Assembly (NCBI RefSeq): GCF_003472385.1
Contig: NZ_QRLV01000011.1
Location: forward strand, 1-61,729
Direction of reading: 5' to 3'
Origin: Sutterella sp. AM11-39
Lineage (GTDB): Bacteria; Pseudomonadota; Gammaproteobacteria; Burkholderiales; Burkholderiaceae_F
Length of the DNA stretch: 61,729 nt
The translations under genes were made by a program, and so were the position numbers. This document shows positions 25,764 through 61,179 of this stretch, in pieces (position 1 is the stretch's first letter; every line of letters begins with the position of its first letter). The notes beneath the pieces are model-generated. The model ran no database searches, had not been told where the DNA came from, and saw only the letters and a list, made by a program, of their open reading frames with translations.

Positions 25764-25810
25764 ACTGCCCCCTGCAGCCGGCACGCCTCAGACGTACGGG
25801 CTATTGGTGG

Positions 25811-35591: not shown

Positions 35592-35665
35592 CTGTCCTCC
35601 CCTCGTGCGATCGTACGGCTCGGTCTTCCTGAGAAAGCCTTTTACTTTGAGTGTTTTAATCATGC

Positions 35666-36601: not shown

Positions 36602-38050
36602 ATGGCTGTTCGCAGCACTGTCTGTTCAAATCGTCCGCATGTCGCCGCTCGCTCTCTCAAGGCGGCCTCGACTGACTACAACATCACGCTTCCGGAAGAG
36701 AAGTCGTCAGCCGGATCCACTGAAGCTTTGTTCCGTTCAAGCTCCGTTTCCGTGCCCCAGTCTCCCGAAAGAGCTCTCTTGCGGCGTCTTGAAGCGCCAT
36801 TTCTGGAGTGTCTGCAAGACGCTTCGGTCTGCAGCCGCCGCTCGGTCTTTGTCGTCATCGGTCCCCGCAAATCCGGCATGCACACGTTTTTTGAGCAGGT
36901 TGTTCCCGATGCGCCGTGTGTGAACTTTGCCGATGAAGGTGCAAGAATGGACGCCGAAGACGCACCGCGGACTTTTTTTGCGCGTTACGCGGCTTTGCCG
37001 ATGCTGGTGCTCTATAACGTGCATCTGGTACCCGCCCTCGCGAGATTGATTGTTTCCGAGGCCGGACGCATGCACGAGGGTGCTGATCTGGCCGCCCCCA
37101 AAATTGTCATCATGGGATCCAGCGTACGACTTCCCGAGCTTGAAACCGCTGCCGAACGCAACAGCAACGTTCGAATATTTCGTATGCGCACCCTGTCTCA
37201 GGGTGAAATCACGGGCGGCGGACACGATTTTCTCGAGCGGCTACGCCTTTTGGATTTCCCTTCCGTTGTCTCTTACAACGAAAGCAACCGCGATCTGATT
37301 CTGAGCCAAGCCATGAGAGGCGGTTATCCGTCGGGACGAGACGGCACGCCCGACGAGCGCCACGACTTTTTCCATGATCTCATCCGTGAAATCTGCCGAC
37401 TCGATCTTCCGTCTGTAAGCCCGTTGAAAAATCCCTTGTTGCTTCGCAAGGTTTACCGCATGGTTGGCGCGGTTTCGGGAGAAAGTGTCAATCTCACGCA
37501 CATAGCAGAGGTGCTCGGCATCGGACGCCCCTTTGCCAAGCATTGTCTGGAAACGCTCGAGCGGCTTTGCTTGGTGGACCGCATTGCTGTCTGGCCGGGC
37601 AGCCTTGCCTTTGAGCGCGGCGTACGCAGTCCTAAATATGTCGTAGCCGATTCCGGCTGGCTGTGCGGTCTGCTTGGTTTTTGCAGCACGACGCCTTGCG
37701 TTATTTCAAGCGATCATCCGGAGGATGTCCGCAGGTTGCTTACGACCTGGACTTGGGCTCAATTGGCAACCCTCACGGACAATGCTCGGGATTTGCATCT
37801 GTGGCACTTTGCTTTGCGAACGGGGCTAAGCATCGACCTGATTCTGGAAGACGCCAGAACGGGGTCGCTCACAGCCTTCAAGGTCTCAACCAGGGAAAAC
37901 GTCACGGAAAACGATTTCGGCGCTTTAGTGAAATTCAGAGAACTTGTCAAAGACCGTGAGGTTCAAAACGTTCTTCTTTATTGCGGGCAAAGCTTAAGAC
38001 GCTTTGATTCGATCGGAGTTGCGGTGCCGATGGCGTTTCTGTGGTTGTGA
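36602..38050 (+). CDS. Degenerate AAA_14/DUF4143-family ATPase-like protein
   Basis: A 482-residue protein with the layout of the AAA_14 plus DUF4143 family: an N-terminal P-loop domain, a winged-helix-like middle (SVNLTHIAEVLGIGRPFAKHCLETLERLCLVDRI) and a C-terminal nuclease-like fold. The key motifs are broken. Walker A reads GPRKSGMHT (residues 87-95), where the family has GPRxxGKTT, so the lysine is lost. Walker B reads MLVLYNVH (134-141) instead of a LDE-type core. The C-terminal ExK of the nuclease-like motif reads AFKVS. So it probably binds without hydrolysing, or has another role. It has a poorly conserved N-terminal 60 residues. AGAGG lies before the ATG. Role unknown. Confidence 0.75.
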   Translation: MAVRSTVCSNRPHVAARSLKAASTDYNITLPEEKSSAGSTEALFRSSSVSVPQSPERALLRRLEAPFLECLQDASVCSRRSVFVVIGPRKSGMHTFFEQVVPDAPCVNFADEGARMDAEDAPRTFFARYAALPMLVLYNVHLVPALARLIVSEAGRMHEGADLAAPKIVIMGSSVRLPELETAAERNSNVRIFRMRTLSQGEITGGGHDFLERLRLLDFPSVVSYNESNRDLILSQAMRGGYPSGRDGTPDERHDFFHDLIREICRLDLPSVSPLKNPLLLRKVYRMVGAVSGESVNLTHIAEVLGIGRPFAKHCLETLERLCLVDRIAVWPGSLAFERGVRSPKYVVADSGWLCGLLGFCSTTPCVISSDHPEDVRRLLTTWTWAQLATLTDNARDLHLWHFALRTGLSIDLILEDARTGSLTAFKVSTRENVTENDFGALVKFRELVKDREVQNVLLYCGQSLRRFDSIGVAVPMAFLWL

Positions 38051-38375: not shown

Positions 38376-39137
38376 ATGATTGTCCAATACGCTTCAGATC
38401 TGCACCTCGACTACGGACAGAATTACGAATACGTCCTCAACAAAGGCTTTGAGGAGGAAGGCAACGTGCTCATTCTTGCCGGAGACGTTGCAAATCTAGT
38501 GGCGCTGCGTACCTATCGCCTCTTCTGGGACCTGTGTTCCTCAAACTTTGAAAAAACGATCTTCGTACCGGGCAATCACGATTACTACGGCGAATGGGAC
38601 AAGGTCGAAGACCTGATTGAACCGATCAAGATTTCGATCCGTCCCAATGTGACGTGCTGCAACAATGAAGTCGTGCGTGTGGGCGACACTGACTTCATCT
38701 GCTCGACTCTCTGGTCGAACATCATTCCCGAACAGGCTGCCGCGGTCAATTCCACACTGCTTGATTTCAGTGAAATCACGTTTGACGGCAAGAGAATCAC
38801 GGTCGACGACTACGTCGCCATGCACAAGGAGGCCGTTGCATTCCTTCAGGAAGCCGTAGCAGGGTCCGATGCCAAGCACATCGTCGTCGTAACGCACCAC
38901 GTGCCGAGCTTTACGCTTTGCCGAGAAGATCACAAGAATTCGCCCATTGCTTCCGGTTTTGTCACCGAACTGGGCAACTGGATTGCAGACTCACGCATCG
39001 ACTACTGGGTCTACGGCCACTCACACACGTCGATTGAAGGCAGCATCGGTAAGACAAAGTTCGTCTCCAACCAATTGGGCTATCTGGCTCTGAACGAAGG
39101 CGAAGACTATTCGCCTTGCAAGACGTTCTTGATCTAG
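38376..39137 (+). CDS. Calcineurin-like metallophosphoesterase
   Basis: Cytoplasmic two-metal phosphoesterase of 253 residues. All five family motifs are in place: DLH (Asp8, His10), GDVAN (Asp37), GNHDY (66-70), THHVP (about 176) and GHSH (about 220). No signal peptide. The substrate could be a nucleotide, a phosphodiester or a phosphoprotein; the sequence does not say. The gene at 39156 follows after 18 bases on the same strand. Confidence 0.9.
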   Translation: MIVQYASDLHLDYGQNYEYVLNKGFEEEGNVLILAGDVANLVALRTYRLFWDLCSSNFEKTIFVPGNHDYYGEWDKVEDLIEPIKISIRPNVTCCNNEVVRVGDTDFICSTLWSNIIPEQAAAVNSTLLDFSEITFDGKRITVDDYVAMHKEAVAFLQEAVAGSDAKHIVVVTHHVPSFTLCREDHKNSPIASGFVTELGNWIADSRIDYWVYGHSHTSIEGSIGKTKFVSNQLGYLALNEGEDYSPCKTFLI

Positions 39138-45481: not shown

Positions 45482-45500
45482 TGCGTCAATCGTTGACGCA
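45482..45500. promoter_or_regulatory. Operator-like palindrome, second of a tandem pair
   Basis: TGCGTC, spacer AATCGTT, GACGCA: perfect arms, extended to TGCGTCAA/TTGACGCA. Its right arm contains a TTGACG that could serve as a -35 element for the operon starting at 45566. Confidence 0.6.
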
Positions 45501-45565: not shown

Positions 45566-46078
45566 ATGTGGTCGCAAATCCAACGAAAACTCTACGAAAT
45601 CATCGATCCCAAAATTAACCTGCAAGTCCATTGCGCCGTCTATCCGGGCGGCGGCAAAACGTGTGCCAACGGCATACCGCGCTTTTGGGTAACTCTCGAC
45701 GGAGAAGTCATCTTCGATTGCATGCATGACTTCATGTTCATGTGGCACGACAAGGACTTCGACATAGGCAATCTTCCGTTTGAAGACGACATCTCGTGGT
45801 GCTGCGGTATCGTCATTCGCCACTTTCAGGCCCCCGTCGACAGACTCATGACCTTGCACGACCGTTTCGGCCTCACGGACATTCTTCTGGCGGCCGACCG
45901 CCGCATCGGCAAACGCCGCTGGCCGGAGATCTATAAAAACCGCTCCGAGGCTGCCCGCAAGGTACTCATCGCTCGAGGCTATGTACCGCCAAACGAAGAC
46001 GAAACCAAGCTCGAAGCCGAAATTCAGGATGTTTTGAACACACTCGCGGCGAGCAACGCCGCTCTCAAATCTCTTTAG
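45566..46078 (+). CDS. SF0329-like protein
   Basis: A 170-residue protein with AAGGAG eight bases before the ATG. The start MWSQIQRKLYEIIDPKINLQVHCAVYPGG and the segment PRFWVTLDGEVIFD match my memory of the SF0329 family, small proteins of unknown function found next to immunity-like and stress genes. Seven His and three or four Cys residues. It is the first gene of a run with the Doc/Fic gene (10 bases later) and the ADP-ribosylglycohydrolase. Confidence 0.65.
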   Translation: MWSQIQRKLYEIIDPKINLQVHCAVYPGGGKTCANGIPRFWVTLDGEVIFDCMHDFMFMWHDKDFDIGNLPFEDDISWCCGIVIRHFQAPVDRLMTLHDRFGLTDILLAADRRIGKRRWPEIYKNRSEAARKVLIARGYVPPNEDETKLEAEIQDVLNTLAASNAALKSL

Positions 46079-46087
46079 GAACAGAAC

Positions 46088-47026
46088 ATGCACCTTCTCA
46101 AACCGAAAGAAATCCTTCGCATTCACGACGCCGTGATTGAGCGTTTCGGCGGCTTAAAAACATCCCCGATGGCGCCCGAAGAATCTCTTTCCAAGGCCGA
46201 AGCTCTCGTCGGCCGCATCCGTACCGCGATGACCTACAACACGGCCTACGATTGGACCAATGTCTTTCTGTGCGCCGCCTTTCAGACGTACTGCATCGCT
46301 CGCGCTCATGCCTTTGCCGACGGCAACAAACGCACAGCCTTAAACGCCGCCGGACTTCTTTTGAAGCGCGCAGGCTGCCGCCTGAAAGATTCCGAGGCCC
46401 TTCCCGAGCTTCTGGTGGAACTCGCGCAGGACCGCGTCAAACTCGAAGACATCGCCGCGCATCTGAAAGCGGAAATGACTGTCTCCGAGAAGACATCTGA
46501 CGTTTCCGAACCCAACGATCCGTTCACGAAATTGACCTGGATGAAAGTTGCCCCACAAACAATGGATCTCATTCGAGACTTCGCGGAAGAGCGAACCGAC
46601 ATTCCGACGCTGTGCATCATCGGTTCTTCGCGGTGGCTCTCCCTGAATCCCTTAGATCTTGCCGAGCTTGCCGTACAGTCAAGGCTCCTTGAGCGCCACC
46701 CGGAATGGTCGCTTGTCACATTCGACTGCGAAATCCGAGCCTTGAATAAGGAAAAGCGCGCGGACGTCGTGAGCGCAGCGCTCACCATCATCGAGACGGC
46801 AGACCTTCTGCACCTTCGTGGACCGTCGTCGTTTATGCACGGTTGGCCGGAAGACTTTGAGACCGTCATGCAGGCGCTCAACGAACGCGCCAACGCCGGC
46901 AAACGAACGATCGTCACGGATGGCGAAACCGTTGCCGAAAGCTTTGCACGGTATAACCGTCCCGTACCGGATATTTTTGCGAATGCCTTGATCGCCGAGT
47001 TCAGTCTGGGCGCGATCGAAAATTAA
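46088..47026 (+). CDS. Doc/Fic-family protein with long C-terminal extension
   Basis: The first 125 residues form a death-on-curing type Fic domain; the active-site loop reads HAFADGNKRTA (residues 74-84), with catalytic His, the Asp-Gly turn and the Asn-Lys-Arg phosphate-binding set all intact. Such enzymes transfer AMP or phosphate to target proteins (Doc phosphorylates EF-Tu). Unlike free Doc toxins (about 125 residues), this protein goes on to 312 residues, with an extension I do not recognise (LTWMKVAPQTMDLIRDF to IAEFSLG). There is no Phd-type antitoxin gene next to it and no obvious inhibitory (S/T)xxxE(G/N) helix motif. The next gene is an ADP-ribosylglycohydrolase, 19 bases downstream. 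Confidence 0.8.
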   Translation: MHLLKPKEILRIHDAVIERFGGLKTSPMAPEESLSKAEALVGRIRTAMTYNTAYDWTNVFLCAAFQTYCIARAHAFADGNKRTALNAAGLLLKRAGCRLKDSEALPELLVELAQDRVKLEDIAAHLKAEMTVSEKTSDVSEPNDPFTKLTWMKVAPQTMDLIRDFAEERTDIPTLCIIGSSRWLSLNPLDLAELAVQSRLLERHPEWSLVTFDCEIRALNKEKRADVVSAALTIIETADLLHLRGPSSFMHGWPEDFETVMQALNERANAGKRTIVTDGETVAESFARYNRPVPDIFANALIAEFSLGAIEN

Positions 47027-47045: not shown

Positions 47046-47855
47046 ATGCTCGGAGCCATTGTCGGCGACATCGTCGGCTCTCAGTTCGAACACGCCAATC
47101 ATCTCAGCAAGTCTTTTGAGCTCTTTTCGCCCGAATGCTCCTTCTCTGACGACACCGTGCTCACGCTCGCCGTCTGTCAGGCGCTTCTGGAGACCGAAAC
47201 AAAGCCTGAGCTTTTGCCGCAGGCCGCCGAAAGGCATCTTGCCAACTTTGCCAACCGCTATTGGAAGCTCAGTTACGGCGGACAATTCAACCGCTGGCGC
47301 ATATCGGAAGTCAAATCGCCGTACTTCAGCTGTGGAAACGGTGCGGCTATGCGCGTAAGCGGCTGCGGCTACGCAGCAAAAACGCTCGACGAGGTCTTTG
47401 CACTGGCTGATGCAGTCACCGCCGTCACGCACAACCACCCGGAAGGTCTCAACGGCGCCAAAGCCGTGGCTGCCTGCGTCTTTCTCGCCCGCACCGGCCA
47501 CGACAAAGCCTCTGTCAAAAACTTCGTCGGTCGCCACTTCTACGACCTCTCATTTTCGCTTGATTCGATCCGCCCGACATATTGCCGCGGTAAAGCGCTC
47601 AACACCTGTCAAAACTCGGTGCCGCAGGCGCTGTTATGTTTCTTCGAGTCGACGTCCTTCGAAGACGCCCTCAGAAACGCGGTGAGTCTCGGCGGTGACA
47701 GCGATACGTTGTGCGCGATTGCGGGAAGCGTCGCGGGCGCCTATTACGGCGTTGCCGATGAAATCGCACAGCAAGCCTCGAGCTTTCTCGACGATCGCCT
47801 GCGCGGTGTGCTTGCCGCATTTGAGTCCAGATACCGACCGGTCTCTCGGGATTGA
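47046..47855 (+). CDS. ADP-ribosylglycohydrolase (DraG/ARH family)
   Basis: A 269-residue enzyme that removes ADP-ribose from protein or nucleic-acid targets. Metal-binding motifs are intact: GDIVGS near the N-terminus, SDDT at 34-37, GNGAAMR at about 99-105 and GGDSDT near 215. GAGAC-type ribosome site before the ATG at 47046. It follows the Fic-like gene, so the pair may write and erase modifications on the same or different targets; that is an inference. It may alternatively protect against ADP-ribosylating toxins. Confidence 0.9.
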   Translation: MLGAIVGDIVGSQFEHANHLSKSFELFSPECSFSDDTVLTLAVCQALLETETKPELLPQAAERHLANFANRYWKLSYGGQFNRWRISEVKSPYFSCGNGAAMRVSGCGYAAKTLDEVFALADAVTAVTHNHPEGLNGAKAVAACVFLARTGHDKASVKNFVGRHFYDLSFSLDSIRPTYCRGKALNTCQNSVPQALLCFFESTSFEDALRNAVSLGGDSDTLCAIAGSVAGAYYGVADEIAQQASSFLDDRLRGVLAAFESRYRPVSRD

Positions 47856-47879: not shown

Positions 47880-47984
47880 CGCGGTTTTAGTCTTTTGTTG
47901 TCAATCGACAAGACTTCCGAAGATAAGCTTCCGCGGAAAAAGTGTCGAAGCGCACGACTCAACGCAACCGAAAGGACCAAACAA

Positions 47985-48584
47985 ATGTATTGCACCGACC
48001 GCATCTGCGCCGCCTTTGCTCTGGCCGCGCTTGTACACGAAAACCAAAAGCGCAAATCCACCGAGATTCCGTACATCTCGCATCCCATGGCCGTGGCCTC
48101 TCAGGTAGCCGTTTGGGGCGGCAGCGAAGATCAGTTCGTCGCAGCGCTCCTGCACGACGTGATCGAAGACGGCGGCGCGCAGTACATTCCGGTCATCGAA
48201 GAGCATTTCGGCAAGCACGTGCTCGAACTCGTGATAGCTTGCTCGGACGCGGCACCCGCCTCGGGCCAAGCGAAAGCTCCCTGGCTTGAGCGCAAGAGGC
48301 AGTACCTTGAGCACTTGCGCGCGGCTTCAGACGAGGTACTGCTCATCAGCGCCGCTGACAAATGGCACAACCTTCAGTGCACTCTGGCCGACGCCAAGCA
48401 CCTGGGTGACGCCGTGTTCGATCGTTTTGTCGACCAGAAAAAGGTCCGCGCCGAAAAACGCGAGCTCGTTCTGTGGAACTACTCGGAGCTTGTTGCCATC
48501 TATCGAGAGCGTAAGTTACCTGTTGCGCACGAAGTCGAATCCTTGCTCAATGAACTGATCATCGCGTTACAGAAGAAAAACTAA
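47985..48584 (+). CDS. HD-domain phosphohydrolase, small alarmone hydrolase-like
   Basis: A 199-residue protein with AAAGGA before the ATG at 47985. The HD motifs match the hydrolase half of RelA/SpoT and MESH1-like proteins: HPMAVA (His33), LLHDVIEDG (His57, Asp58, Glu61, Asp62), and SAADKWHNL (Asp about 129). It lacks a synthetase or TGS/ACT domain. It may degrade (p)ppGpp or (p)ppApp, or another nucleotide. The operator-like palindrome upstream and terminator downstream suggest its own transcription unit within the regulated cluster. Confidence 0.8.
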   Translation: MYCTDRICAAFALAALVHENQKRKSTEIPYISHPMAVASQVAVWGGSEDQFVAALLHDVIEDGGAQYIPVIEEHFGKHVLELVIACSDAAPASGQAKAPWLERKRQYLEHLRAASDEVLLISAADKWHNLQCTLADAKHLGDAVFDRFVDQKKVRAEKRELVLWNYSELVAIYRERKLPVAHEVESLLNELIIALQKKN

Positions 48585-48631
48585 CCTTCTGCAGCTCACT
48601 CTTTTATGCAATTTCTCCTTGAACCTCCTCG

Positions 48632-48660
48632 GGCCGGTCTTCGGATCGGCCTCTTTTTTT
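48632..48660 (+). terminator. Intrinsic terminator with UUCG tetraloop
   Basis: GGCCGGTC at 48632-48639, loop TTCG, GATCGGCC at 48644-48651 (one G-T wobble), then T7 at 48654-48660. Ends the HD-domain gene. Confidence 0.9.
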
Positions 48661-48715: not shown

Positions 48716-48734
48716 TGCGTCAATTATTGACGCA
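48716..48734. promoter_or_regulatory. Operator-like palindrome in front of the defence-like operon
   Basis: TGCGTC, spacer AATTATT, GACGCA: perfect arms, extended to TGCGTCAA/TTGACGCA. Centre 59 bases before the AAA+ gene start. A related compact palindrome CTGCGACGCAG lies at 48662-48672. Confidence 0.6.
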
Positions 48735-48783: not shown

Positions 48784-49830
48784 ATGAAATTCTCCGACCT
48801 GAAATCAACCATCCTCGAACAGTTCAAGACCACCCACGAAGTGGTTCCGTTCATCGTCGGCAAGCCCGGCGGCGGAAAGAGCTCCTGTGCACGCGAAATC
48901 GCGCAGGAACTTGCCGTCACCCACAAGATTCCTTCTGAGCGCATCGTCGAATTCAACCCGTCTCTGCGAGAGCCTTGCGACGTGCTGGGTCTGCCGCAAT
49001 TTCACGGCGAGTGCACCAAATGGCTGCCGCCCGAAGAGTTCTGGGCCTTGCGCCAAGGTGTGGGACCGTGCGTGCTGATTCTGGAGGAACTGAGCGACGC
49101 CGACATGAACATGCAAAATCCGCTCTGCCGCGTCGTGCTCGATCGCTGCGCCGGGCAGCTGCGTCTGTCGGATCAACTCTTCATCATCGCCACGGGCAAC
49201 CGCACCGAAGATCGATCGGGCGCCAATCGACTGAGCACGAAACTTGCCAACCGCATGCGCGAGCTCGAATTCACCGAAAACCTCGACGACTGGCTCGAGT
49301 GGGCGCAGGCAAACAACGTGCCTGTGAAACTGCAGGCCTTTCTGCGCTTTCGCCCGAGTCTGCTCTCGGACTTCGACGCCAAACGCAGCAGGAATCCGAC
49401 GCCGCGCTCCTGGGCCTCCGTGGCCTTAATCCCCGAGTCGATCGAAAAGAAAGCAAAGCTCTTTCGGGAGCACGTCGCAGGTTCCGTGGGCGACGGCGCC
49501 GCGGCTGAATACGTGGGCTTTCTGAGAGTCATGAAACGCCTTCCGAGTGCCGAGAGAATCATCAACGATCCTGAGGGGATCGAGATACCGAGCGCCAACG
49601 ACATTCAGTGGGCCACGATTGCCCAGCTCAGCTCCGTCCTCACGACCCACAACGCCGAGGCAATCTGGACCTACACGGCGCGCCTGAACCCCGAAATGAC
49701 CGTGGCCGCGGCCAAGATGTATCTCTCGGCCAACCGTAAGGACTTTACGTCGGCGAAGACTCGCGACGGCAACAACCTCTACAGCACGGTCGTGGCGCGC
49801 TTTCTGCTCAAAAGCGGCCTTTTGATCTAA
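48784..49830 (+). CDS. AAA+ ATPase (MoxR-like)
   Basis: A 348-residue single-domain AAA+ protein. Walker A is GKPGGGKSS (26-34), Walker B is VLILEEL (97-103), sensor 1 lies in IIATGNRTED, and RMRELEF follows as in MoxR-type ATPases. A helical lid with a family-specific loop (FRPSLLSDFD) makes up the rest. MoxR-type proteins act as chaperones that load or remodel partner complexes and normally pair with a VWA protein; exactly such a gene follows 19 bases downstream. First gene of the seven-gene operon reaching 58642. Confidence 0.85.
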   Translation: MKFSDLKSTILEQFKTTHEVVPFIVGKPGGGKSSCAREIAQELAVTHKIPSERIVEFNPSLREPCDVLGLPQFHGECTKWLPPEEFWALRQGVGPCVLILEELSDADMNMQNPLCRVVLDRCAGQLRLSDQLFIIATGNRTEDRSGANRLSTKLANRMRELEFTENLDDWLEWAQANNVPVKLQAFLRFRPSLLSDFDAKRSRNPTPRSWASVALIPESIEKKAKLFREHVAGSVGDGAAAEYVGFLRVMKRLPSAERIINDPEGIEIPSANDIQWATIAQLSSVLTTHNAEAIWTYTARLNPEMTVAAAKMYLSANRKDFTSAKTRDGNNLYSTVVARFLLKSGLLI

Positions 49831-49849
49831 AGCGTGAAGGAGTAAAGCG

Positions 49850-51142
49850 ATGCTTGCCGCCGACGTAGACCAGGGACAGAAAATCAGCAAGGCCTCCGTG
49901 GGGTTGCTTCTTCGTCATCCCTTTTTCGGCAGCCTTCTCTACCGTCACGAAGTGCTTATCACGGCTTCCGTCGAGACCGCCGCCGTGACGACTGACCGAG
50001 TCATTTTGCTCAACCCCGAGTTCGTAGAGAAATGCTCTGCCCCGCAGCTTGAATTTTTGCTTGCCCACGAGGTGATGCACATCGTCTTTGCACACATTGC
50101 AAGGCGCGGTGACCGGGATCCGGTGATCTACAACATCGCATGCGACGCCGTCATCAACGAAACGCTTATCGCCGAAGGTGTCGGCGAGTTCATCGCAGGC
50201 GGCATCCGTATGCTCGGCGCGCAGTACCGTACGTCGGAGTCTATCTACGACGAGATCGCGTCAAGGCTCAAACCCAAGGAAAAAACGTCTCCCTCGATAG
50301 GCCAAGGCCTGACGCTGCCGTTATTTCCGGATGATCCTGAGGCCGATGGGCAAGCCGGCGGACTCGCCGGTGCATCCGATGACGGATCCGAGAATGGCAA
50401 CGACAGCTCGGCAAGCACTTCTCCCTTCATCGGGGAACTCAACATCCCGGACCTTCCGCGTGAAGCACGGAAGATGACGCAGGAGGAAATCAACGAGCAG
50501 ATCGAAGAAGGAAAGCTCGCGCTCGGCCAGGCGCTCACGACCGCCAGGACCTGCGGAAACATGAGCGGCGGCCTTGCCCGCTTCATCGGTTCGATTCTGG
50601 AATCCTCCATGCCCTGGTACGAACTGCTTGAGCGCTACATGGTCGGCAAGGCTGAGCAACGTTACAACTGGAGCCGTCCCGACAAACGGCGGCTGAACAT
50701 CGCCTACCTGCCGCGGCGCGAACGTTTCCCGTCCTTGGGAACGGTCGTGATCGGCGTCGACGTTTCAGGTTCCATTTCCGACATTGAAATCGCCGAGTAT
50801 CTCGGCCATTGCGAGCGAATTTTCGACCTCTGCCACCCGCGCAAGGTCTATGTCGTCTACTGCACAACGCAAGTTGAAGCCGTCGACGAATATGAAAAGG
50901 GAGAACCGCTCGAACCTCGCAAAAACCTTTGGAGCGGCGGCACCTGTATGCCGGCCATCATGGATTGGATTGCAAAGAACGACATCGAAGCCGACGTCTG
51001 CGTCACGTTTACCGACGGCTATACGCCCTATCCAACCGAAAAACAGGTCCCCTGCCCGCTTGTCTGGGTGTTGAGCAGCGATTTCCACCCGCATCAAGAC
51101 ATGCGGGGCGAAGTGATCTACGTCAATGGCAACCGGAACTGA
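49850..51142 (+). CDS. DUF2201-type protein: putative metallopeptidase domain plus VWA domain
   Basis: A 430-residue protein. The N-terminal domain has LAHEVMHIVFAH with HExxH at residues 73-77, then CDAVINETLI, as in the putative zinc peptidase part of DUF2201. A Gly/Ser/Asp-rich linker of about 60 residues follows (SIGQGLTL to ASTSPFIGE). The C-terminal VWA domain has the MIDAS motif DVSGS (about 304-308) and a TDG turn. In MoxR-VWA systems the VWA partner binds metal and links the ATPase to its target. The upstream AAA+ gene supports that. GAAGGAG precedes the ATG. Confidence 0.85.
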   Translation: MLAADVDQGQKISKASVGLLLRHPFFGSLLYRHEVLITASVETAAVTTDRVILLNPEFVEKCSAPQLEFLLAHEVMHIVFAHIARRGDRDPVIYNIACDAVINETLIAEGVGEFIAGGIRMLGAQYRTSESIYDEIASRLKPKEKTSPSIGQGLTLPLFPDDPEADGQAGGLAGASDDGSENGNDSSASTSPFIGELNIPDLPREARKMTQEEINEQIEEGKLALGQALTTARTCGNMSGGLARFIGSILESSMPWYELLERYMVGKAEQRYNWSRPDKRRLNIAYLPRRERFPSLGTVVIGVDVSGSISDIEIAEYLGHCERIFDLCHPRKVYVVYCTTQVEAVDEYEKGEPLEPRKNLWSGGTCMPAIMDWIAKNDIEADVCVTFTDGYTPYPTEKQVPCPLVWVLSSDFHPHQDMRGEVIYVNGNRN

Positions 51143-51145
51143 AAT

Positions 51146-52369
51146 ATGTACGTACACACGCCACGATCTTATTTTTATCCCGACCAACTCCGAAAGTTTC
51201 TCAGTCGGCATGCGAGCGACGTTCCGATCGGTCAGGTCACCGCTGCCGACCTTGGAAAGCCCTACCTGTACAGCATCGTACGGCCCAACCGTTTTCGTTT
51301 CGTCTACGAGCTTTGGTCGGCCAGCTACCTGCCGCTCAATTTCTACATCTCGATGCAGCACATTTACACGGGGCCTTCGCCGGGCTTTTACTCTCGCGCA
51401 AAGGCTGAGCTCATGCGCACCGGTAAACATCCGATGTTTTCCTTTGTGGACGGCTGGGCGCCGTTAAGACGTTTCGGCCTGGACAGAGACACCAGAGCGC
51501 CGCTGCAGATGCCGCTGTCCGTGCATACGGTCGACCGCATGGCCAAGTCAGTGTGGAACAAACTGCCCTTTCACAGCGTCTATTCCAGACCGCACGCCTT
51601 CTCGCTCATCATGACGGCCCTTGAAGGTCGGCTGACGCTCGAAAAGCTTGTCGAGCGCGCCAAGAGCGGAACCTTGCCCAAGAAATGGAAGCCGGTTACT
51701 TTTGCCTTTCGAAGCGTAGAGCTTGCGACTGATCGGCTGCTGGATCGCCGAACGCTGTTGGAGCCGAGTTCGAGAGCCAAAAGCCGGTTCTATCAACCCG
51801 AAAACATTCGATTTTGTGTGCCGCTCTACACCAAGTTAAGCGGAACCTTTGCAAGCGTCTCCGACAACAATGTCGACTTTTTCGAGGACCTGCCGGCTTA
51901 CTTCGTGGCGCAAGAAGGTGCCGGCTGGAAATTGTTTTTGTCGGATGCGAGAAAAACCGAAGTCGAAACTGTCGCGCAAGGCAAAGGCAAACCGGAAGAT
52001 CGTCAGACGAAAATCATTGAGGCGATCAGCAATCATCTGATCACCGCCCTTCTGAACGCCACTGAAGAACAGAGTCTCCTGCTCAATCTTACTCGGGAGA
52101 AGTTTTATAAGGTCACGCTGGTGCCCTTGTCTGCCGCTGACTGTGTGCAGTGTTACGAGGACATGCTCGACTGTTATCTCAGGCAATTGCAGAAGGTGTT
52201 CGACAAGCCCGAAAAGTACACGGACAAGGAAGGCGACGAGGTGAAAACCGAACTTGAAGTCATGGTCTATCGGGTGATGCAGGAGGCTTTCGACGAATTT
52301 TTCCCAACGCCCGACAAAGGCCTACAATCGAACAAACAAAGGCGCTTGCCCCTAAACGAAGGAGAATAA
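51146..52369 (+). CDS. Unknown 407-residue protein of the AAA-VWA operon
   Basis: Starts three bases after the VWA gene stop, so translation is likely coupled. I do not recognise the family. It is basic and aromatic-rich in the first half (RSYFYPDQL, RPNRFRFVYELWSASYLPLNFYISMQHIYTG), more helical and acidic later, and ends QRRLPLNEGE. No membrane segment, signal peptide or P-loop. Its fixed place suggests a third component of the AAA-VWA machine, perhaps the target-recognition part. Confidence 0.7.
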   Translation: MYVHTPRSYFYPDQLRKFLSRHASDVPIGQVTAADLGKPYLYSIVRPNRFRFVYELWSASYLPLNFYISMQHIYTGPSPGFYSRAKAELMRTGKHPMFSFVDGWAPLRRFGLDRDTRAPLQMPLSVHTVDRMAKSVWNKLPFHSVYSRPHAFSLIMTALEGRLTLEKLVERAKSGTLPKKWKPVTFAFRSVELATDRLLDRRTLLEPSSRAKSRFYQPENIRFCVPLYTKLSGTFASVSDNNVDFFEDLPAYFVAQEGAGWKLFLSDARKTEVETVAQGKGKPEDRQTKIIEAISNHLITALLNATEEQSLLLNLTREKFYKVTLVPLSAADCVQCYEDMLDCYLRQLQKVFDKPEKYTDKEGDEVKTELEVMVYRVMQEAFDEFFPTPDKGLQSNKQRRLPLNEGE

Positions 52370-52374
52370 ACAAA

Positions 52375-52677
52375 ATGCTGATCACGATACGCAATGGCAA
52401 AGCGGAACTGCGAAACGACAACGGAGGATTGGTGCGAACGATGGGTTCGTCCAACGTGGTGAGCGTCTCGATGAGTTCGGAACTGGAACTCGTCGGCATC
52501 GTCTACGCCAGCGGCAAGGCTGAACTCCGGCGACTTAACGGCGGCTTGCTTCGTACGCTCGAACCCAAGGACGCCGTGGACATTTCCTTTAGCGGCGATC
52601 TGGTAGCGATTCGCATGAGCAACGGTAAAACGAAGGTTCGCAAGGCTTCCACCGGAGGTCTCGTGCGTACGATCTGA
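52375..52677 (+). CDS. Three-repeat beta protein
   Basis: A 100-residue protein of three related units: GKAELRNDNGGLVRTM, GKAELRRLNGGLLRTL and GKTKVRKASTGGLVRTI. Each is a pair of short strands around the core G-K-x-x-x-R-x(3,4)-G-G-L-x-R-T, preceded by a variable strand pair. It looks like a small beta-propeller/beta-flower fold made from one duplicated hairpin, of the kind used for binding. Starts five bases after the previous stop, with GAAGGAG overlapping it. Function unknown. Confidence 0.7.
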   Translation: MLITIRNGKAELRNDNGGLVRTMGSSNVVSVSMSSELELVGIVYASGKAELRRLNGGLLRTLEPKDAVDISFSGDLVAIRMSNGKTKVRKASTGGLVRTI

Positions 52678-52686
52678 CGAACCGAC

Positions 52687-52717
52687 ATAGATCTCATCTA
52701 TCGGATCGTCCCGATCC
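52687..52717. promoter_or_regulatory. Two adjacent palindromes in front of the antitoxin-like gene
   Basis: ATAGAT-CTC-ATCTAT (52687-52701) and GGATCG-TCC-CGATCC (52703-52717), both perfect 6-3-6 repeats set side by side. This 97-base gap is the largest inside the operon, so it is a likely internal promoter/operator, possibly bound by the RHH-type protein encoded next. Confidence 0.5.
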
Positions 52718-52774
52718 TGTCAGAATTCAGTACAGAATCAACATATCGTGCAAAGATCAACCTATGGGTCGCCC

Positions 52775-52957
52775 ATGGACTCGCTGAGCATCGAACTTGA
52801 TTCCGAGCTGCTTGTTCAAGCCGAGGAAGTCCGCGCCGAAATGGGCGTCACGATCGAAGACGCCGTCGTGATGTTCCTGCAGGAGACGCGTCTTGAGGGA
52901 CGGCTTCATTTTGAGGTGCCGAAGGACACCGATCTTCTCAATACACCGCAGGAGTGA
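52775..52957 (+). CDS. RelB/DinJ-like antitoxin (orphan)
   Basis: A 60-residue protein from the ATG at 52775; a GTG at 52748 would add nine residues. The segment SIELDSELLVQAEEVRAEMGVTIEDAV has the strand-helix-helix form of RelB/DinJ ribbon-helix-helix DNA-binding proteins, followed by a short acidic tail. RelB-type proteins neutralise a RelE/YafQ toxin and repress their own promoter. No toxin gene follows: the stop overlaps a GTG at 52954 opening into the McrB-like frame. So it may act as a DNA-binding regulator of this operon or respond to a toxin elsewhere. Confidence 0.65.
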   Translation: MDSLSIELDSELLVQAEEVRAEMGVTIEDAVVMFLQETRLEGRLHFEVPKDTDLLNTPQE

Positions 52958-53139
52958 CTGCTGAGTGCGACCGGTACGCGCCGCCCGCGAAACTATCCAT
53001 TTGCCGGCGGCCGCCCTTTTTCCAACTTCCGCAACGTCCAGCGCAGCTCGCTAAAATCCAAGAGATATCGTTTAAGGGCGCGGCTTTTCTTTTAGTACGC
53101 CGATGCCGCGCGCCCGTTATTTCGGACCTGGTTTCTCGT

Positions 53140-56100
53140 ATGTCTGACAGCAATACCGTTTCGCCCGTGCCCTCCATCACCGCCTCCGATCTTCTCAACT
53201 TTGCGTTGGATCACGCACCCAACAAAGCCAAAAAAGAAGTCGGCCTCTACGTCAAGGAGAATCTCTCCAAGGCCCCTATGTTCAAGGGAGTACGCACGAG
53301 CAGCAACACCTTTCTCGACGGCGCGACGTTTCGCAACCGCATTCCGACGTCTTTCAAAAACAGCTTGCCGTCGATGAGCGCCTTCATCAAGACGCTTTTG
53401 AGAGAAACGCATGTCCAGCTTCTTGCCGACAAGAAGGCAAAGCACGAGGACCCGTTTAAGGCTGCGGGCGAATTCGCTCCCGAAACGGTGTACGGCATCA
53501 CTGAGAAGCTTCTCACGCTACTCAAGGGCAAGCCCGAGGAACTCGCCGCTCACGTATTGTTGCTCTTCTTTGATGAATTTTTGGAAGCCGACGGCAAGGG
53601 ACTCTCTTTCTCGATTCCGGACGAGCGAAAGGATCGCTTGAGCGAAGTGCTCGGCGTGGTGCTCACCGCTCTTGATTCATCGGAAAAGTCCAAAGCGGGC
53701 GCCGAATCGTTCAAAGCCTACGTGCTCGCTCGCCAGCCGCAGTCAACGCAAGACAAGGAAGCGCGCGAATCTCCCGTTGAACCGAAAGCTAAACCGGCCG
53801 CCGCCAAGAATGTCCGCAAGACGAAGACCACAACCAGCGCCAAGTCCCGCGTGGCAAAACTCGTCAGCGACGGGTTCGATGCAAAGAAATCGAATCCTGC
53901 TGCCGAAACGCTGCTGACGACCGCCGCCAACAGTCTCTCAGCCGAAGTGACGCCCGCACATGACACCCATACGCTGCGCAGCAAGATTGAGGCTGTCTCC
54001 CTTGCGGCTGCCGTGTCGAAAACGACGACCGCAGGCACCAAGGCACAAGAAGCGCCCGCTGATACTCCAACCGAAGAAAACCGAACCGCCGCAGACCCCG
54101 CAGCCCCTGCTCCGGAGCCCGAGCCCGAACCGGCTCCTTACGTTGCGCCCGACAACTTCCCGATTGAAAATGAATTCACGTACGACGTCAAGCCCGCCCG
54201 CGGCAAGACGAGAAGTCTCGGGTGCGTTCGCCGCTTCGGAAACAAATTCACGAACCTCTTTCTCGTCGCCAACTGGTCGGACGCCGCCAAACGCTTCATC
54301 CAGCAGGATCTCTCGACCCGGTTTCCGAGCTTTGGTGCCGTGAGTCTGGATTCGAGCAAGTCGCCCCTGAAGATCAACGAAGGCTCGTTCTTTATCTTTG
54401 ACTGGTCAGACGAAATCTTCTACGACCGCAAGGATGGCTACGGAGGTCGCCGCTCGGACTACGCTTTGGGCGTAGACTACGACGACATCGTCTCTTCGGG
54501 TGCCCTGCGCCGCGTTGAAGACGCGGGCGGCTATGTGGTGGTCTATCCGGATCTGCCCGACAACGAGGCGCCCAACCTGCAGGACAAGGTATCGATTCGC
54601 TTCCGTCGGAAGGAAGAGCCCGAAGACGCGGAAAACCGCAAGCTTCTGCATCTCAACAACGTTCCGGTACTGCTTGCTGTCGGCGATCGCCTCTACGGTC
54701 CGCTTAACCTTCTCGAAGATTCCCTGCACCGGCCGTACGTCAACCTGCAGCTGCGCTCTGGCTCGCGCGTGATCAAGGGTTTTGACCGCACAAGCGGCGA
54801 GGCACCGTTGCTCACTGTCGAACAAAGCTGCCAGTCCGGCGACTCGCGCGTCAATGTCAAGGTCGACGTCATCTTCGTCACCAACCTGCAGCGCTGTGCC
54901 TACGATATGCTCTCGGACGACGGGCTTCTCAGCAAACTCTCTGCGAGCATCGCAGAAAACCGTTCCGAACGAGAAAAGCTCGAGGAATGGGCCGCCACGC
55001 AGCTCGAGACGAGCGAACTCTTCTGCGAAGACGACCGCATTCGCGCATCCCGAAAGAACCGAATCAGGAGCCTCCTGCAGCGCGCCGAAACCAACGACCG
55101 TTATTTCGACTCGGTCATTGCTCTCCTGGCAAAGACGATCGATCGCCGCGTTGACGATCAAAACTTCTTTGACGGCATCGTCAAGCAGTTCATAGACAAT
55201 CCCGAGCTGAGAAAACGCCTGGAGTCGCACCGCGTGGTCACCACACAGCTCGAGAACTTGCGTGAGATGGTTTCTCAGCTCGAGACCCGTCGCGACACCC
55301 TGCAGCGCGAAATATCCCGCACGCTCGAGATGGAACGCAAGCAGGCGCAGGAAAACAACCGCACGCTTCTCGAAGACAACCGAAAGCTCGCGCAGCAGTG
55401 TTCCGAGCGTCGTGCCGAACTCGGGCTCATCGACGACATCGAAGAGCTCACCCAACAAAAAAAGAAGCTTCAGACCAAGGTCGACGACCTTTCGGCTCAG
55501 CACTCCAAGATCTCGTCGGAAATCAACGCGATCGACGACCATCTGAAGCAAGCCGTGCAAAAGGCGCACGCCTACGCGTTTGACGGCGCCATTGCGTCCA
55601 AATTGTTGCAGGCCGCCTCCGACTGGGAGTCCGACACCGAGCAGACCAATTTCGAAGCTCGCGCCCGCGTGGTCGCTACTCTGCCGCGTCTTGAACTGAC
55701 CGGTAAGGCGTTAGCTGACGCGCTCGTTGCCGACGTGCAAAGCTACCGCGCGTACGACAAGAACACGATCCTCAATTTCTTCATCCTGCTCACCCAGAAC
55801 TTCCTCACGGTCTTTTCGGGCGAACCGGGTTCCGGCAAAACGTCGATCTGCGAGATTCTCTCCTACGTTCTGGGCTTGCGCTCGTTGCATAAGATGCCTG
55901 CTGTTGCGCAGTCGGGCCTGTGGAAAAATCCCATGGCGGCGCAGCGCTTCCTCACCGTCCCGGTAGAGCGAGGATGGACGTCCAAGCGCGACTTCATCGG
56001 TTACTACAACCCGCTTTCCAAGACCTTTGAGAGCACCGACTCTCGCCGTCGCGAAGCCTTTGCTGAACTGCACGCCGAAAACCAGAGAGGCTTTGACGAC

Positions 56101-56784
56101 ATCGCGTTTGTGATGCTTCTCGACGAAGCCAACCTCTCGCCCATGGAATACTACTGGGGCGACTTCATGCGCATCTGTGACAACCGTACGCACATCGGTG
56201 AGTACGTGTCGTTTGGCGGCGAAGCCACCTACTCGGTACCGGATACGCTGCGGTTCCTCGCGACCATCAACAACGACTTTACGACGGAAAACCTCTCGCC
56301 GCGTCTCTTGGATCGCGCCAACATCGTGAAACTCCCCGAGCAGGACGTGCGATTCTCCAAACAACCCGACGAACGCGAGGAACACCCGATCGTCTCCTGG
56401 CACGCCATGAAGGACTACTTCGGTCCCAGGACAATGGAAAACGCCGACGAAGTCAACGCGCTTTTGGAAGATATTTACGCGGGCTTCAAGAATCAGCTGG
56501 GCATCTCCGTTTCGATGAGAACGCGTCTGGCCATACAGGATTACGTTTCTGCCGGCGCCGTGGTCTTTACGGGCGAAACCGAACCCGCCTACCGCACTGC
56601 TATTGACTTTGCTGTCGTGCAGCGCCTGATGCCGCGCATTGACGGCAACGGCAAGGAATACCGCGAGCGGTTGGAGGCCATGCAGTCGATCTTCGACGGC
56701 AACGGTCTGGATCGAAGTCGCACGGAACTAGCCGAACTCATCGAGCGCGGCGAAAAGTCCATGGGGTGGTATCGCTTCTTTTGA
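53140..56784 (+). CDS. Large coiled-coil McrB-like AAA+ NTPase
   Basis: From the ATG at 53140 (MSDSNTV) the protein has 1,214 residues; the frame is open to a GTG at 52954 that overlaps the antitoxin stop, giving a possible longer form. Layout: N-terminal helical region (to about 185), Ala/Pro/Lys/Glu-rich linker (185-345), an alpha/beta region I cannot name (345-690), a long coiled coil (about 697-808), then a C-terminal McrB-type AAA+ domain. Walker A is GEPGSGKTS (about 894-902), Walker B is VMLLDEANLSPMEYYW (about 990-1005), and INNDF...LSPRLLDRA is the sensor/arginine-finger region. The DEANLSPME core and IDRANxV type end are McrB-like. In coiled-coil McrB homologues this NTPase drives a McrC-type nuclease; the next gene supplies one. 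Confidence 0.8.
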   Translation: MSDSNTVSPVPSITASDLLNFALDHAPNKAKKEVGLYVKENLSKAPMFKGVRTSSNTFLDGATFRNRIPTSFKNSLPSMSAFIKTLLRETHVQLLADKKAKHEDPFKAAGEFAPETVYGITEKLLTLLKGKPEELAAHVLLLFFDEFLEADGKGLSFSIPDERKDRLSEVLGVVLTALDSSEKSKAGAESFKAYVLARQPQSTQDKEARESPVEPKAKPAAAKNVRKTKTTTSAKSRVAKLVSDGFDAKKSNPAAETLLTTAANSLSAEVTPAHDTHTLRSKIEAVSLAAAVSKTTTAGTKAQEAPADTPTEENRTAADPAAPAPEPEPEPAPYVAPDNFPIENEFTYDVKPARGKTRSLGCVRRFGNKFTNLFLVANWSDAAKRFIQQDLSTRFPSFGAVSLDSSKSPLKINEGSFFIFDWSDEIFYDRKDGYGGRRSDYALGVDYDDIVSSGALRRVEDAGGYVVVYPDLPDNEAPNLQDKVSIRFRRKEEPEDAENRKLLHLNNVPVLLAVGDRLYGPLNLLEDSLHRPYVNLQLRSGSRVIKGFDRTSGEAPLLTVEQSCQSGDSRVNVKVDVIFVTNLQRCAYDMLSDDGLLSKLSASIAENRSEREKLEEWAATQLETSELFCEDDRIRASRKNRIRSLLQRAETNDRYFDSVIALLAKTIDRRVDDQNFFDGIVKQFIDNPELRKRLESHRVVTTQLENLREMVSQLETRRDTLQREISRTLEMERKQAQENNRTLLEDNRKLAQQCSERRAELGLIDDIEELTQQKKKLQTKVDDLSAQHSKISSEINAIDDHLKQAVQKAHAYAFDGAIASKLLQAASDWESDTEQTNFEARARVVATLPRLELTGKALADALVADVQSYRAYDKNTILNFFILLTQNFLTVFSGEPGSGKTSICEILSYVLGLRSLHKMPAVAQSGLWKNPMAAQRFLTVPVERGWTSKRDFIGYYNPLSKTFESTDSRRREAFAELHAENQRGFDDIAFVMLLDEANLSPMEYYWGDFMRICDNRTHIGEYVSFGGEATYSVPDTLRFLATINNDFTTENLSPRLLDRANIVKLPEQDVRFSKQPDEREEHPIVSWHAMKDYFGPRTMENADEVNALLEDIYAGFKNQLGISVSMRTRLAIQDYVSAGAVVFTGETEPAYRTAIDFAVVQRLMPRIDGNGKEYRERLEAMQSIFDGNGLDRSRTELAELIERGEKSMGWYRFF

Positions 56785-56794
56785 TTGAGAAACG

Positions 56795-58642
56795 ATGTCG
56801 CAGCTCGAACTTTTTACGGACACCGAACGCGTCGCGCTGAGGCTTCAAAGGGAGCCCGCTACCGTCTGCGCCGAAACGCTTCACCGTATCCGCCTGTCGG
56901 TCAAAGCTGATCGGCTGTGGCGTATCCGTATTCCGCATGCTGCTTTTGCCGAATTGGGGGTCGAGCCCGAGGACATTGCGCACATCTCCATCCCGACGCT
57001 TCTCCTCAACGGCGAGCCAATCGTCACAATGGGTTGGCGCGATCAAGATTCCTTCGTCCTGACGCCGGTCGTATCCATTGCGAATACGAGGCCGGCTGTT
57101 CTTTTCAAGGACTCGATCGGCGCGGTGTCACTCTCAGTCGATTCGAGTATCGGGGCAATCCACACTGAGGCCTTCTTTCTTTCGCTCAAGCGCGGCTTTG
57201 TGGCCGACTACGTTAGCAAAATGGCCGACTACGTCGTCGACCGACTCAATGTCTGGGCCAAGGCGCCTACGCCCGGGGAATACCTGACGGCTCCTGCAGA
57301 AGAATCCACATTTGCTACCGAACTCCAAAACCGCCTGGATTCGATCGAAAGGACGCTGAAAACCTTCGAGCAGCTGCTGCCCTACTTTCGTACCAACGCC
57401 AAGTTCGAGCTCGTCTCGCAGGAAACGGTCGATGGCGTAGGAAGGCTCACGGGGTTTTCGCACTCGACACTTCGCCACGTCATCGAACATCCCGAAGATC
57501 TCGTCACCTCGAGTCACGGCACCGGCATTCGCATCCACAACCGCTACTACATGCCGCGGCATACATTGGTGGAAACCAAGCGCAAGACCTTTGACCTGCC
57601 CGAAAACCGCCTGATGCTGGGTTTTCTCGAATGCGTCACCGAAGTGCTTGAGGCAGAGGTTGAGGCCGTGGGTGCTCGTCGCTCGCAACTGCCCGAGCTT
57701 CTCAAGGTTGAGGATGAATACGTAAGCAGCGCCGAGGCAATCATGGGCGTGGTACTCAAGCGCCTCAAAAACCATCAGTCGCAGCTTGAAGCATTGCTCT
57801 CACACGCCAAACGCATCAGCGGACAGTACCGACAGGTTCTGCCAGTGACGCCGGCGCCCTATGGAGAGACTCCGGTTCCCTCGAAGGTCTTTCTGACGAT
57901 TCCTGCCTATCGTCTGGTGTATCAGTGCATGTGCGACTGGCAGAAGATGGGCCCGCTGCATCTGATGGACGAAGGACTGCTTCTGACGACATTTGAGCGC
58001 AGCCGACTCTACGAGCTCTTTTGCCTCTTCAAACTCATCGACGATCTGCGTGCCGCAGGCTTTGAAATCACCGACCACAAGCGCTTCGTCTATTCGGCGC
58101 GACCGCCGCACTGGCCGCAAAGTCCGGTGCCCAACACCTTCGTTCTCGAAAAACCGACGGCTGACAACTCCGTCTGTCGCGCGACGGTCTTTTATGAGCC
58201 GTTTGTGTGTTCGCCCCGCATGCCGCTTGAAAACGGCGTGGGGCTCGTGCGCACGTCTCCCTTCTCTTGGGATGGCGGCTTTAAGACGACGGATGCGCAA
58301 AACAGTTTCGTGACGCCCGACTACATCGTCAAACTGCAGACGGGTGAACGCGTGCGGTGGTTCATCGCCGACGCCAAATACACCGACGGCTGGAACGCCG
58401 TGCAGACGCAGACGCGCGAGCTCCTCTTTAAGTACCTTTATTCCGTGTGCCCCGTCAACGACGACGAAACGCTCGAAGGCTTGTGGATTCTCTACGGCTG
58501 GCTCAAACCAGAGTCCGAACCGATGCCCGTGACGGCACGCAAGTGGGCGGCAAAGCCGGGCGTCGACGTGCATTACGAGGAAGTGAGTCCGATGGTGACC
58601 GATGTCGGGAGACTTGCCGCGACCGTGGCGAGTCTTGCATGA
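56795..58642 (+). CDS. DUF2357-like protein with PD-(D/E)XK nuclease site (McrC analogue)
   Basis: A 615-residue protein starting 10 bases after the McrB-like gene. The N-terminal half is a beta-rich DUF2357-like region, the middle is helical (ENRLMLGFLECVTEVLEAEVEAV, KRLKNHQSQLEALL), and the C-terminal domain carries the nuclease motif TPDY (Asp509) followed after a strand turn by FIADAKY (Asp526, Lys528). This Asp-x(n)-(D/E)xK set is the McrC/PD-(D/E)XK active site. Paired with an McrB-type NTPase it makes a type IV restriction-like module that would cut modified or otherwise marked nucleic acid. The target cannot be read from the sequence. Last gene of the operon. Confidence 0.8.
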   Translation: MSQLELFTDTERVALRLQREPATVCAETLHRIRLSVKADRLWRIRIPHAAFAELGVEPEDIAHISIPTLLLNGEPIVTMGWRDQDSFVLTPVVSIANTRPAVLFKDSIGAVSLSVDSSIGAIHTEAFFLSLKRGFVADYVSKMADYVVDRLNVWAKAPTPGEYLTAPAEESTFATELQNRLDSIERTLKTFEQLLPYFRTNAKFELVSQETVDGVGRLTGFSHSTLRHVIEHPEDLVTSSHGTGIRIHNRYYMPRHTLVETKRKTFDLPENRLMLGFLECVTEVLEAEVEAVGARRSQLPELLKVEDEYVSSAEAIMGVVLKRLKNHQSQLEALLSHAKRISGQYRQVLPVTPAPYGETPVPSKVFLTIPAYRLVYQCMCDWQKMGPLHLMDEGLLLTTFERSRLYELFCLFKLIDDLRAAGFEITDHKRFVYSARPPHWPQSPVPNTFVLEKPTADNSVCRATVFYEPFVCSPRMPLENGVGLVRTSPFSWDGGFKTTDAQNSFVTPDYIVKLQTGERVRWFIADAKYTDGWNAVQTQTRELLFKYLYSVCPVNDDETLEGLWILYGWLKPESEPMPVTARKWAAKPGVDVHYEEVSPMVTDVGRLAATVASLA

Positions 58643-60108: not shown

Positions 60109-61179
60109 TTAAGCCCAATAAGGAATGTATCGGCGCAAACGCGGACCGGCTTCCGGGTCGTAGAGTTTGATCAGCTTCTTCGATAACGCATCCTTGATGA
60201 TTCGGCTGATTTGTGAGGAATTCTTGGCTTCAATCCCGAATCGTTCCCGCAACGTCGCGTTGGTCATCGGCTTGCGATTCACATGCTTGAGCACACAATG
60301 CTGGTAGCAAATCTGCTCTTTTTCTTGCGACGAATAGTCCTTGAAGGCTTTTCGCGCACACAAAACAACCTTGAAATTCTCGCCGGTGATTTCAAACTCG
60401 GGCGCTGGCAGAAAGGCCTGCTCGGTTGCTGCGACCACTTTGTCAATCCCGCTGCCTCGTTCTTCGCAGATGTTGATTCTTCGCATCAAGGCGGCCAAAT
60501 CTTCGTTTCGGCTTCTCGGCGGACTGTCTATGAAACGCTCAGTATCGACCAGAGGACGGCCGAGATTGAAGATCTCGATTCGGTCTTTGAAAATCTCCAA
60601 CATCGGACCGCTGCCGCTGATCCGGAAATCCTGATGGATCAAAGCATTCGGAATCAGTTCACGAATGATGATTTCAGGATACATGCTGACCTCTCGTCGA
60701 AAGGCTTCGCCAATGACCTCCTTGCTTGGCAAAAGCCTTTGATGAGACGAATCAATCCGTCGAAGTCAACGGCATAACCCTGATCCCAGACGAATTCGTT
60801 TTTCGGTGAAAAGGCGACTGTCATCCGCGTACCTGACGATGCGAAAAGCCCTGCGCGCAAGCGACGGAAAGTTACTTAACTTTTCCGCAAAACAAATGGC
60901 GCCGAGGTTTGTAATGGAATACAGACCGTTAATCTCTTTGACGAGAAGCTTGTACAACACCATGCGATCCAGAAGCGCCTCCTGCGTTTTGGGACGATCA
61001 ATGGACATGCGCTTCACATAGGACTCAGCTGATAGCAGCTTCAAAACCTCTGCTGCCGAAAGCTTTGATGAAGCCATCCTTGAATCAAACGGCTTTTTAG
61101 CAAAAGCTCGCGATAAGAAACGCTCTTTGTCCCGGGCTTCCTTTTCGACTGCTTGTGTCGGAGTGTGTTTGGCTACCAT
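60109..61179 (-). pseudogene. Frameshifted AlbA_2/GHKL-type ATP-binding regulator
   Basis: Three overlapping minus-strand frames add up to the middle and C-terminal parts of a COG2865-type regulator: LSAAEVLKLL...ITNLGAICFAEKLS, then NEFVWDQGYAVDFDGLIRLIKG, then SKEVIGEAFRREV and the GHKL-like ATPase motifs ELIPNALIHQDF and CEERGSGIDKV, ending in a winged-helix region. Each junction is explained by loss of one base in a homopolymer: one A in the A5 near 60806 and one T in the T4 near 60739. The AlbA_2 domain at the N-terminus is missing as well, so the gene is also truncated. Either a true pseudogene or, less likely, two sequencing errors. Confidence 0.75.

Follow-up and report, generated by a model that had tools for sequence, protein, structure and literature searches.

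The window analysed here is a stretch of 61,729 nucleotides (nt) from Sutterella sp. AM11-39 (contig NZ_QRLV01000011.1, positions 1 to 61,729), and the subject is a locus at 48784-58642 where an initial annotation had placed seven genes, p1 to p7, as one composite defence operon. All seven open reading frames (ORFs) are present there on the + strand. Proteins were taken from ORF calls and searched against Pfam and PADLOC profiles, with motifs read from the sequence; these bear out a MoxR-VWA pair, a 407-residue protein falling in no Pfam family above cut-off, a RelB-like protein, and a coiled-coil McrB-like NTPase with a DUF2357 nuclease. The locus is indeed composite, holding two modules that are separable in relatives, and it reaches beyond the seven genes, since one and the same palindrome precedes the MoxR gene and an upstream operon of SF0329, Fic, ADP-ribosylglycohydrolase and HD genes.

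48784..49830, + strand: p1, MoxR-type AAA+ ATPase, 348 residues
49850..51142, + strand: p2, DUF2201 protein with N-terminal metallopeptidase (HEVMH) and C-terminal VWA (DVSGS), 430 residues
51146..52369, + strand: p3, 407 residues, without Pfam family above cut-off
52375..52677, + strand: p4, repeat protein of 100 residues, weakly IceA2-like
52748..52957, + strand: p5, RelB-like protein, 69 residues
53140..56784, + strand: p6, McrB-like NTPase of 1214 residues, with N-terminal region, beta-rich domain, coiled coil and AAA domain with NxD
56795..58642, + strand: p7, McrC-like DUF2357 and PD-(D/E)XK protein, 615 residues
48784-52369, + strand: module A core (p1-p3), MoxR, DUF2201 metallopeptidase-VWA and rare 407-residue protein
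53140-58642, + strand: module B (p6-p7), coiled-coil NxD-type McrB and DUF2357/PD-(D/E)XK pair

A palindrome before two operons

Two copies of the palindrome, four genes upstream of p1 and a hairpin extend the locus as follows.

48716-48734, no strand: palindrome copy 2, TGCGTCAATTATTGACGCA, 19 nt, lying 49 nt 5' of p1
45482-45500, no strand: palindrome copy 1, TGCGTCAATCGTTGACGCA, with perfect 8-nt outer arms and 2 mismatches to copy 2, lying 65 nt 5' of u1
45566..46078, + strand: u1, SF0329-family protein, 170 residues (PF25753, 3.6e-18)
46088..47026, + strand: u2, Fic/Doc-type protein, 312 residues (PF02661, 1.2e-10), motif HAFADGNKR
47046..47855, + strand: u3, ADP-ribosylglycohydrolase (DraG/ARH type), 269 residues (PF03747, 5.2e-37)
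47895..48584, + strand: u4, HD_4 protein, 229 residues, TTG start (PF13328, 3.9e-23)
48631..48652, + strand: terminator-like hairpin between u4 and p1, 9 pairs and a T-rich tail

Matches to the palindrome number four in the window (both strands counted), where shuffled sequences average 0.02, and the pattern GCGTCAATNNTTGACGC finds a single site among 67 genomes of the family of Sutterella wadsworthensis (the family set), which lies 5' of the only p1-p2-p3 operon there, that of genome G021 (locus L036). Of the shared upstream operator proposed initially, the palindrome itself is real, and its first copy belongs to the u1-u4 operon that the annotated boundary had omitted. The palindrome may be a working operator. 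Within u1-u4 the gaps are 9, 19 and 39 nt, and u4 is separated from p1 by 199 nt; Pfam gave no match to the C-terminal part of u2. The hairpin in that interval is a consensus match only, of a kind that occurs 21 times in the region and 15.6 times in shuffles.

Along p1 to p7 the direction is shared, as first described, and the gaps are 19, 3, 5, 70, 182 and 10 nt. The spacing of mostly 3 to 20 bases therefore holds except for the gaps of 70 and 182 nt, which flank p5 and make p4-p5 and p5-p6 loose. An alternative GTG start for p6 at 52954 would lengthen it to 1276 residues, with a 4-nt overlap at the p5 stop.

Separable modules in related genomes

Conservation was followed in the family set and in an order sample of 399 genomes, itself a selection from a larger group. 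No completeness figures accompany the genomes, so absences are provisional, and neighbours were tested by single-sequence phmmer at E-values of 1e-4 or below, a procedure that misses distant relatives.

The core of module A is well defined at its first two genes. Pfam scores the AAA domain of p1 at 20.1 bits, just under the cut-off of 21.2, and its Walker A motif is GKPGGGKS; p2 matches DUF2201_N (5.5e-34) and the DUF2201 VWA domain (1.5e-14), with relatives in 12 of the 67 family genomes. Relatives of p3 are far scarcer, with 8 proteins in a large protein database, one genome of the 67 and one of the 399, the last two being the same genome, G021, where the protein is 31-32% identical; a pattern scan of viral contigs found none. 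G021 keeps the whole operon p1-p2-p3, at 74, 55 and 31% identity, and carries no relative of p6 or p7, although the same p6 search recovers relatives in G003 and G063. Ahead of its MoxR gene, downstream of the palindrome and in frame, lies a SIR2-like 5' fragment (L036:13902-15221, - strand), which resembles the front of family SIR2 proteins (35-40% over 52-60 residues) and is probably the relic of a former SIR2 gene; at the threshold used, G021 has no SIR2 match. A WYL gene stands about 5 kilobases (kb) beyond p1-p3 in the same genome (L036:5661-6656).

Module B has its own distribution. Relatives of p7 occur in 11 of the 67 family genomes, and the p6-p7 pair in the same 11; the two order genomes with p6 relatives at E-values of 1e-30 or below (2 of 399) both fall within the family set. 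Nine of the 11 genomes give no match to p2 at all. Of the other two, G004 has p2 on a different contig from p6-p7, and G063 has a diverged MoxR-DUF2201 pair at a distance of about 11 kb. Nowhere among the 11 family loci was p1-p3 seen beside p6-p7, at least five of these loci (L001, L163, L164, L168, L169) being cut by contig ends. Since p1-p3 occur without p6-p7 in G021 and p7 mostly without p2, the modules can be separated; the seven-gene order was found in the window alone, and these observations weigh against the proposal of one seven-part system. For the kept order around p3 and the repeat protein, first suggested as a check, p3 is too rare to serve at large: it lies beside p1-p2 in G021, where p6-p7 are absent, and no relative of p4 turned up in any fetched locus.

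The AAA domain of p6 has the NxD motif as ATINND, and its N and D do not vary in two alignments, of 5 and 10 sequences; SMC, LmuB and PbeC profiles match its coiled coil at about 590-830, and a predicted model places long helices at about residues 698-846. In p7, DUF2357 (PF09823, 8e-8) is accompanied by an intact PD-(D/E)XK motif, TPDY...ADAKY, with lysine 528. PADLOC PDC-M entries are multi-gene. The PDC-M26A model matches p6 (4.4e-26), covering parts of the protein only, as well as the relatives in L001, L002 and L003; p7 matches no PADLOC family at E-values up to 0.1, so that the partner expected of PDC-M26 is missing. The neighbours of p6-p7 elsewhere include a type IV restriction enzyme (G001), an ADP-ribosylglycohydrolase (G003) and, about 1.2 kb downstream in G005, a 538-residue protein with a C-terminal DarT domain (L163:6941-8557, - strand). 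One p6 relative of 1096 residues, P0044, is listed as 60% identical over 30% yet carries an Autotransporter Pfam domain, and may come from a chimeric contig.

Between the modules, p4, first described as a three-repeat beta protein, is a repeat protein with a weak IceA2 match (7.5e-5, below the Pfam cut-off). The RelB assignment of p5 holds (PF04221, 24.4 bits against a cut-off of 22.4); a role as the antitoxin of a RelBE pair finds no support, Pfam finding no RelE/ParE-type or other toxin in p4, in p6 or in eight further short frames around p5.

ADP-ribose genes around the MoxR-DUF2201 pair

Four of the 12 p2-bearing family genomes (G004, G006, G007 and G012) have a SIR2 gene (PF02146) within 1 kb of p2 and an ADP-ribosylglycohydrolase gene within 10 kb, the SIR2 match being in each case the only one in the genome. 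Fic and SF0329 genes also lie near the pair in G006 and G007. Gene order varies somewhat among the four: SF0329 and Fic occur in only some of them, SF0329 takes differing positions, and the ADP-ribosylglycohydrolases number one or two. Their third component is a protein family, F5, present in two copies where the contig is uncut and showing no profile similarity to p3. Identity in p1 is 77-86% among the four and 52-54% between the window and them. Near the F5-F5-MoxR-DUF2201 cluster of G012 and G004 (L037 and L040) there are also WYL-type regulator and NERD-helicase genes. Downstream of a second MoxR-DUF2201 pair in G012 (L038, G012:C2:50000-68000) comes a family-A DNA polymerase that has an exonuclease domain, and this locus may be an N4-type prophage region.

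Elsewhere in the window, an open frame of 5251 residues (10029-25784, - strand) shares a stretch with autotransporter genes at 28241-30814 and 32010-35663. An AAA/DUF4143 protein (36602-38050, + strand) matches the PADLOC candidate PDC-S01 (2.4e-51) and is followed by a metallophosphatase (38376-39137) matching PDC-S10 (4.9e-12). Beyond p7, a HATPase_c_4 (RecG C-terminal-like) protein at 60109-61179 (- strand) appears split into at least two frames. No tRNA was found in the window, and no integrase in the subset of ORFs scanned.

Known systems, rival explanations and meaning

Each part of the locus belongs to a known kind; what may be new is the combination in module A together with its palindrome. 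In the window a MoxR gene adjoins a DUF2201-type gene, and the same two-gene architecture is found in jumbo and N4-type phages (N4 gp25-like): a table for the N4-like phage RG-2014 gives Vwfa and DUF2201_N for one gene (PMC5735904), and the passage on jumbo phages in PMC7824862 describes MoxR with a metallopeptidase-vWA fusion, for which its authors propose virion assembly. The window differs from the phage pairs in p3, in host-type neighbours, in the palindrome and in the ADP-ribose and Fic genes, with 25-30% identity among the matches listed. The ternary conflict systems described in sections of PMC7159879 (VMAP, iSTAND and others) likewise join MoxR, vWA and a variable third protein in one operon, and such systems appear near type III CRISPR loci in the portion of PMC10910872 that treats them. 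The VMAP order given there (PMC7159879) is VMAP-MoxR-vWA, whereas the window has MoxR-VWA-p3; and unlike the vWA proteins of ternary systems, p2 has a metallopeptidase at its N-terminus, lacks a C-terminal effector and stops close to its VWA domain.

Module B shares with CoCoNuT type I McrBC, as outlined in PMC11090510, the NxD motif, a coiled coil joined to the front of the AAA domain, a DUF2357 partner and an intact PD-(D/E)XK; the CoCoNuT CnuB described there has a cold-shock-like OB fold before the coiled coil, where p6 possibly has an OB-like domain, and p6 differs from type I by its long N-terminal extension. Canonical E. coli-type McrBC has NxxD in McrB, whereas p6 and its relatives have NxD. 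With the NAD+/ADP-ribose conflict networks of PMC9503650 the window shares ADP-ribosylglycohydrolase and its relatives share SIR2; the word MoxR is absent from that paper. In a library of open-licence papers, searched by word, no description was found of MoxR with a metallopeptidase-VWA protein and an exchangeable third protein, combined with neighbouring Fic, ADP-ribosylglycohydrolase and SIR2 genes and a dedicated palindrome.

We judge it about an even chance that two separable modules together form a composite conflict island here. More tentatively, module A could be an undescribed conflict system in which MoxR, a metallopeptidase-VWA protein and a third, exchangeable one (either p3 or F5, which is unrelated to it) control Doc-type and ADP-ribose enzymes (Fic, ADP-ribosylglycohydrolase, SIR2, HD) through one palindromic operator, with NxD McrBC as an optional addition. 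The link to conflict systems seen in the initial annotation rests mainly on genes outside its seven, and defence is a putative role. Module A would comprise two operons under one operator, u1-u4 and p1-p3, perhaps reading on into p4-p7, and the operator would hold these genes low until a stress signal. A MoxR ring with its VWA-metallopeptidase partner could then remodel or cleave a client (in the simplest case p3 itself or a partner that p3 holds), and client processing might switch a cell-arresting activity on or off, the best candidate being the Doc-type protein u2; the ADP-ribosylglycohydrolase u3 and the HD protein u4 could remove ADP-ribose or nucleotide products. The coiled-coil NxD McrBC pair of module B would recognise and cut invading nucleic acid unaided, having landed downstream of module A.

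A number of observations weigh against this proposal. The terminator-like hairpin parts u4 from p1, and the distance from palindrome to p1 is 49 nt here but about 0.3 kb in G021. No Fic match occurs in G021, whose ADP-ribosylglycohydrolases sit on other contigs. The structure model of p3 has a mean pLDDT of 59 and no PDB match at an E-value of 0.001 or below, which leaves p3 without a fold assignment. ADP-ribosylglycohydrolase (37 of 67) and Fic (44 of 67) are common in the family genomes at large, and 8 of the 12 p2-bearing genomes and the second G012 locus lack such neighbours. Because the four genomes with SIR2 are related to one another, as their p1 identities indicate, they and the window make perhaps two independent associations: the four may reflect one lineage event and the window a second. 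Finally, none of 80 loci fetched from the order sample, within the stretch fetched, matches u1-u4, p3-p7, SIR2, F5, F10, F11, beta-flower, WYL or NERD-helicase, and p2 is matched by 53 plasmid records (the one checked is conjugative and carries an ATPase gene two genes upstream) and by 386 phage records, including N4-type phages. In Acinetobacter phage Presley the match is annotated "N4-like (gp25)" and again has an ATPase gene two genes upstream.

The 80 loci come from the DUF2201 matches of 92 of the 399 order genomes, one (G044) being from the family; left aside were the known matches in G012, G021 and G063 and others that were mostly short or weak. A MoxR gene is kept in 76 of the 80, the four without a p1 match (L094, L101, L106, L113) lying near contig ends; several of the 80 are cut by such ends. 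At least 16 adjoin genes read by eye, from sequence starts, as HemL-like (9) or FliP-like (7), and since the ORF caller retains long spurious antisense ORFs such neighbour clusters are approximate. Wide occurrence of the first four genes in housekeeping settings apart from the McrBC-like pair, which the initial annotation had named as counting against it, is thus seen in part, for p1 and p2. Being widespread in order loci, plasmids and N4-type phages, the MoxR-DUF2201 pair alone is no mark of a conflict system. These same observations, with the virion assembly proposed for jumbo phages (PMC7824862), speak for p1-p3 as a chaperone, of housekeeping or virion type, that matures a single client enzyme or particle, its island neighbours being incidental. 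We regard that explanation as possible but doubtful: the third gene varies between lineages instead of forming a fixed client, the palindrome is common to p1-p3 and the Fic/ADP-ribosylglycohydrolase operon, and SIR2, ADP-ribosylglycohydrolase and Fic recur as neighbours in the family.

Somewhat unlikely, and overlapping the other readings, is that the McrBC pair is an ordinary CoCoNuT member and the locus a defence hotspot of unrelated genes. The NxD motif, coiled coil, DUF2357 and intact nuclease motif of p6-p7 suit such an origin, as do the restriction, DarT and ADP-ribosylglycohydrolase genes near the pair elsewhere, but it leaves the same palindrome before two operons, and the G021 operon, unexplained. 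One defence system of all seven genes, its McrBC part controlled by the MoxR-VWA part, would account for the common direction, the short gaps within each module and the presence of both at one locus, and might draw on the possible p5-p6 overlap at the GTG start and on the diverged pair of G063. We consider it improbable, given the module A operon of G021 without p6-p7, the nine p7-bearing genomes without p2, the absence of p1-p3 adjoining p6-p7 in 11 loci (several cut by contig ends) and the 70- and 182-nt gaps between the parts.

If module A is a real unit, it would tie a widespread and poorly understood chaperone-peptidase pair to ADP-ribose and Doc-type chemistry, and its operator and three genes would offer a compact handle on what such pairs act on. 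The p6-p7 pair represents a branch of NxD coiled-coil McrBC, found here in one bacterial family, that should be useful for testing the proposed targeting of RNA or DNA.

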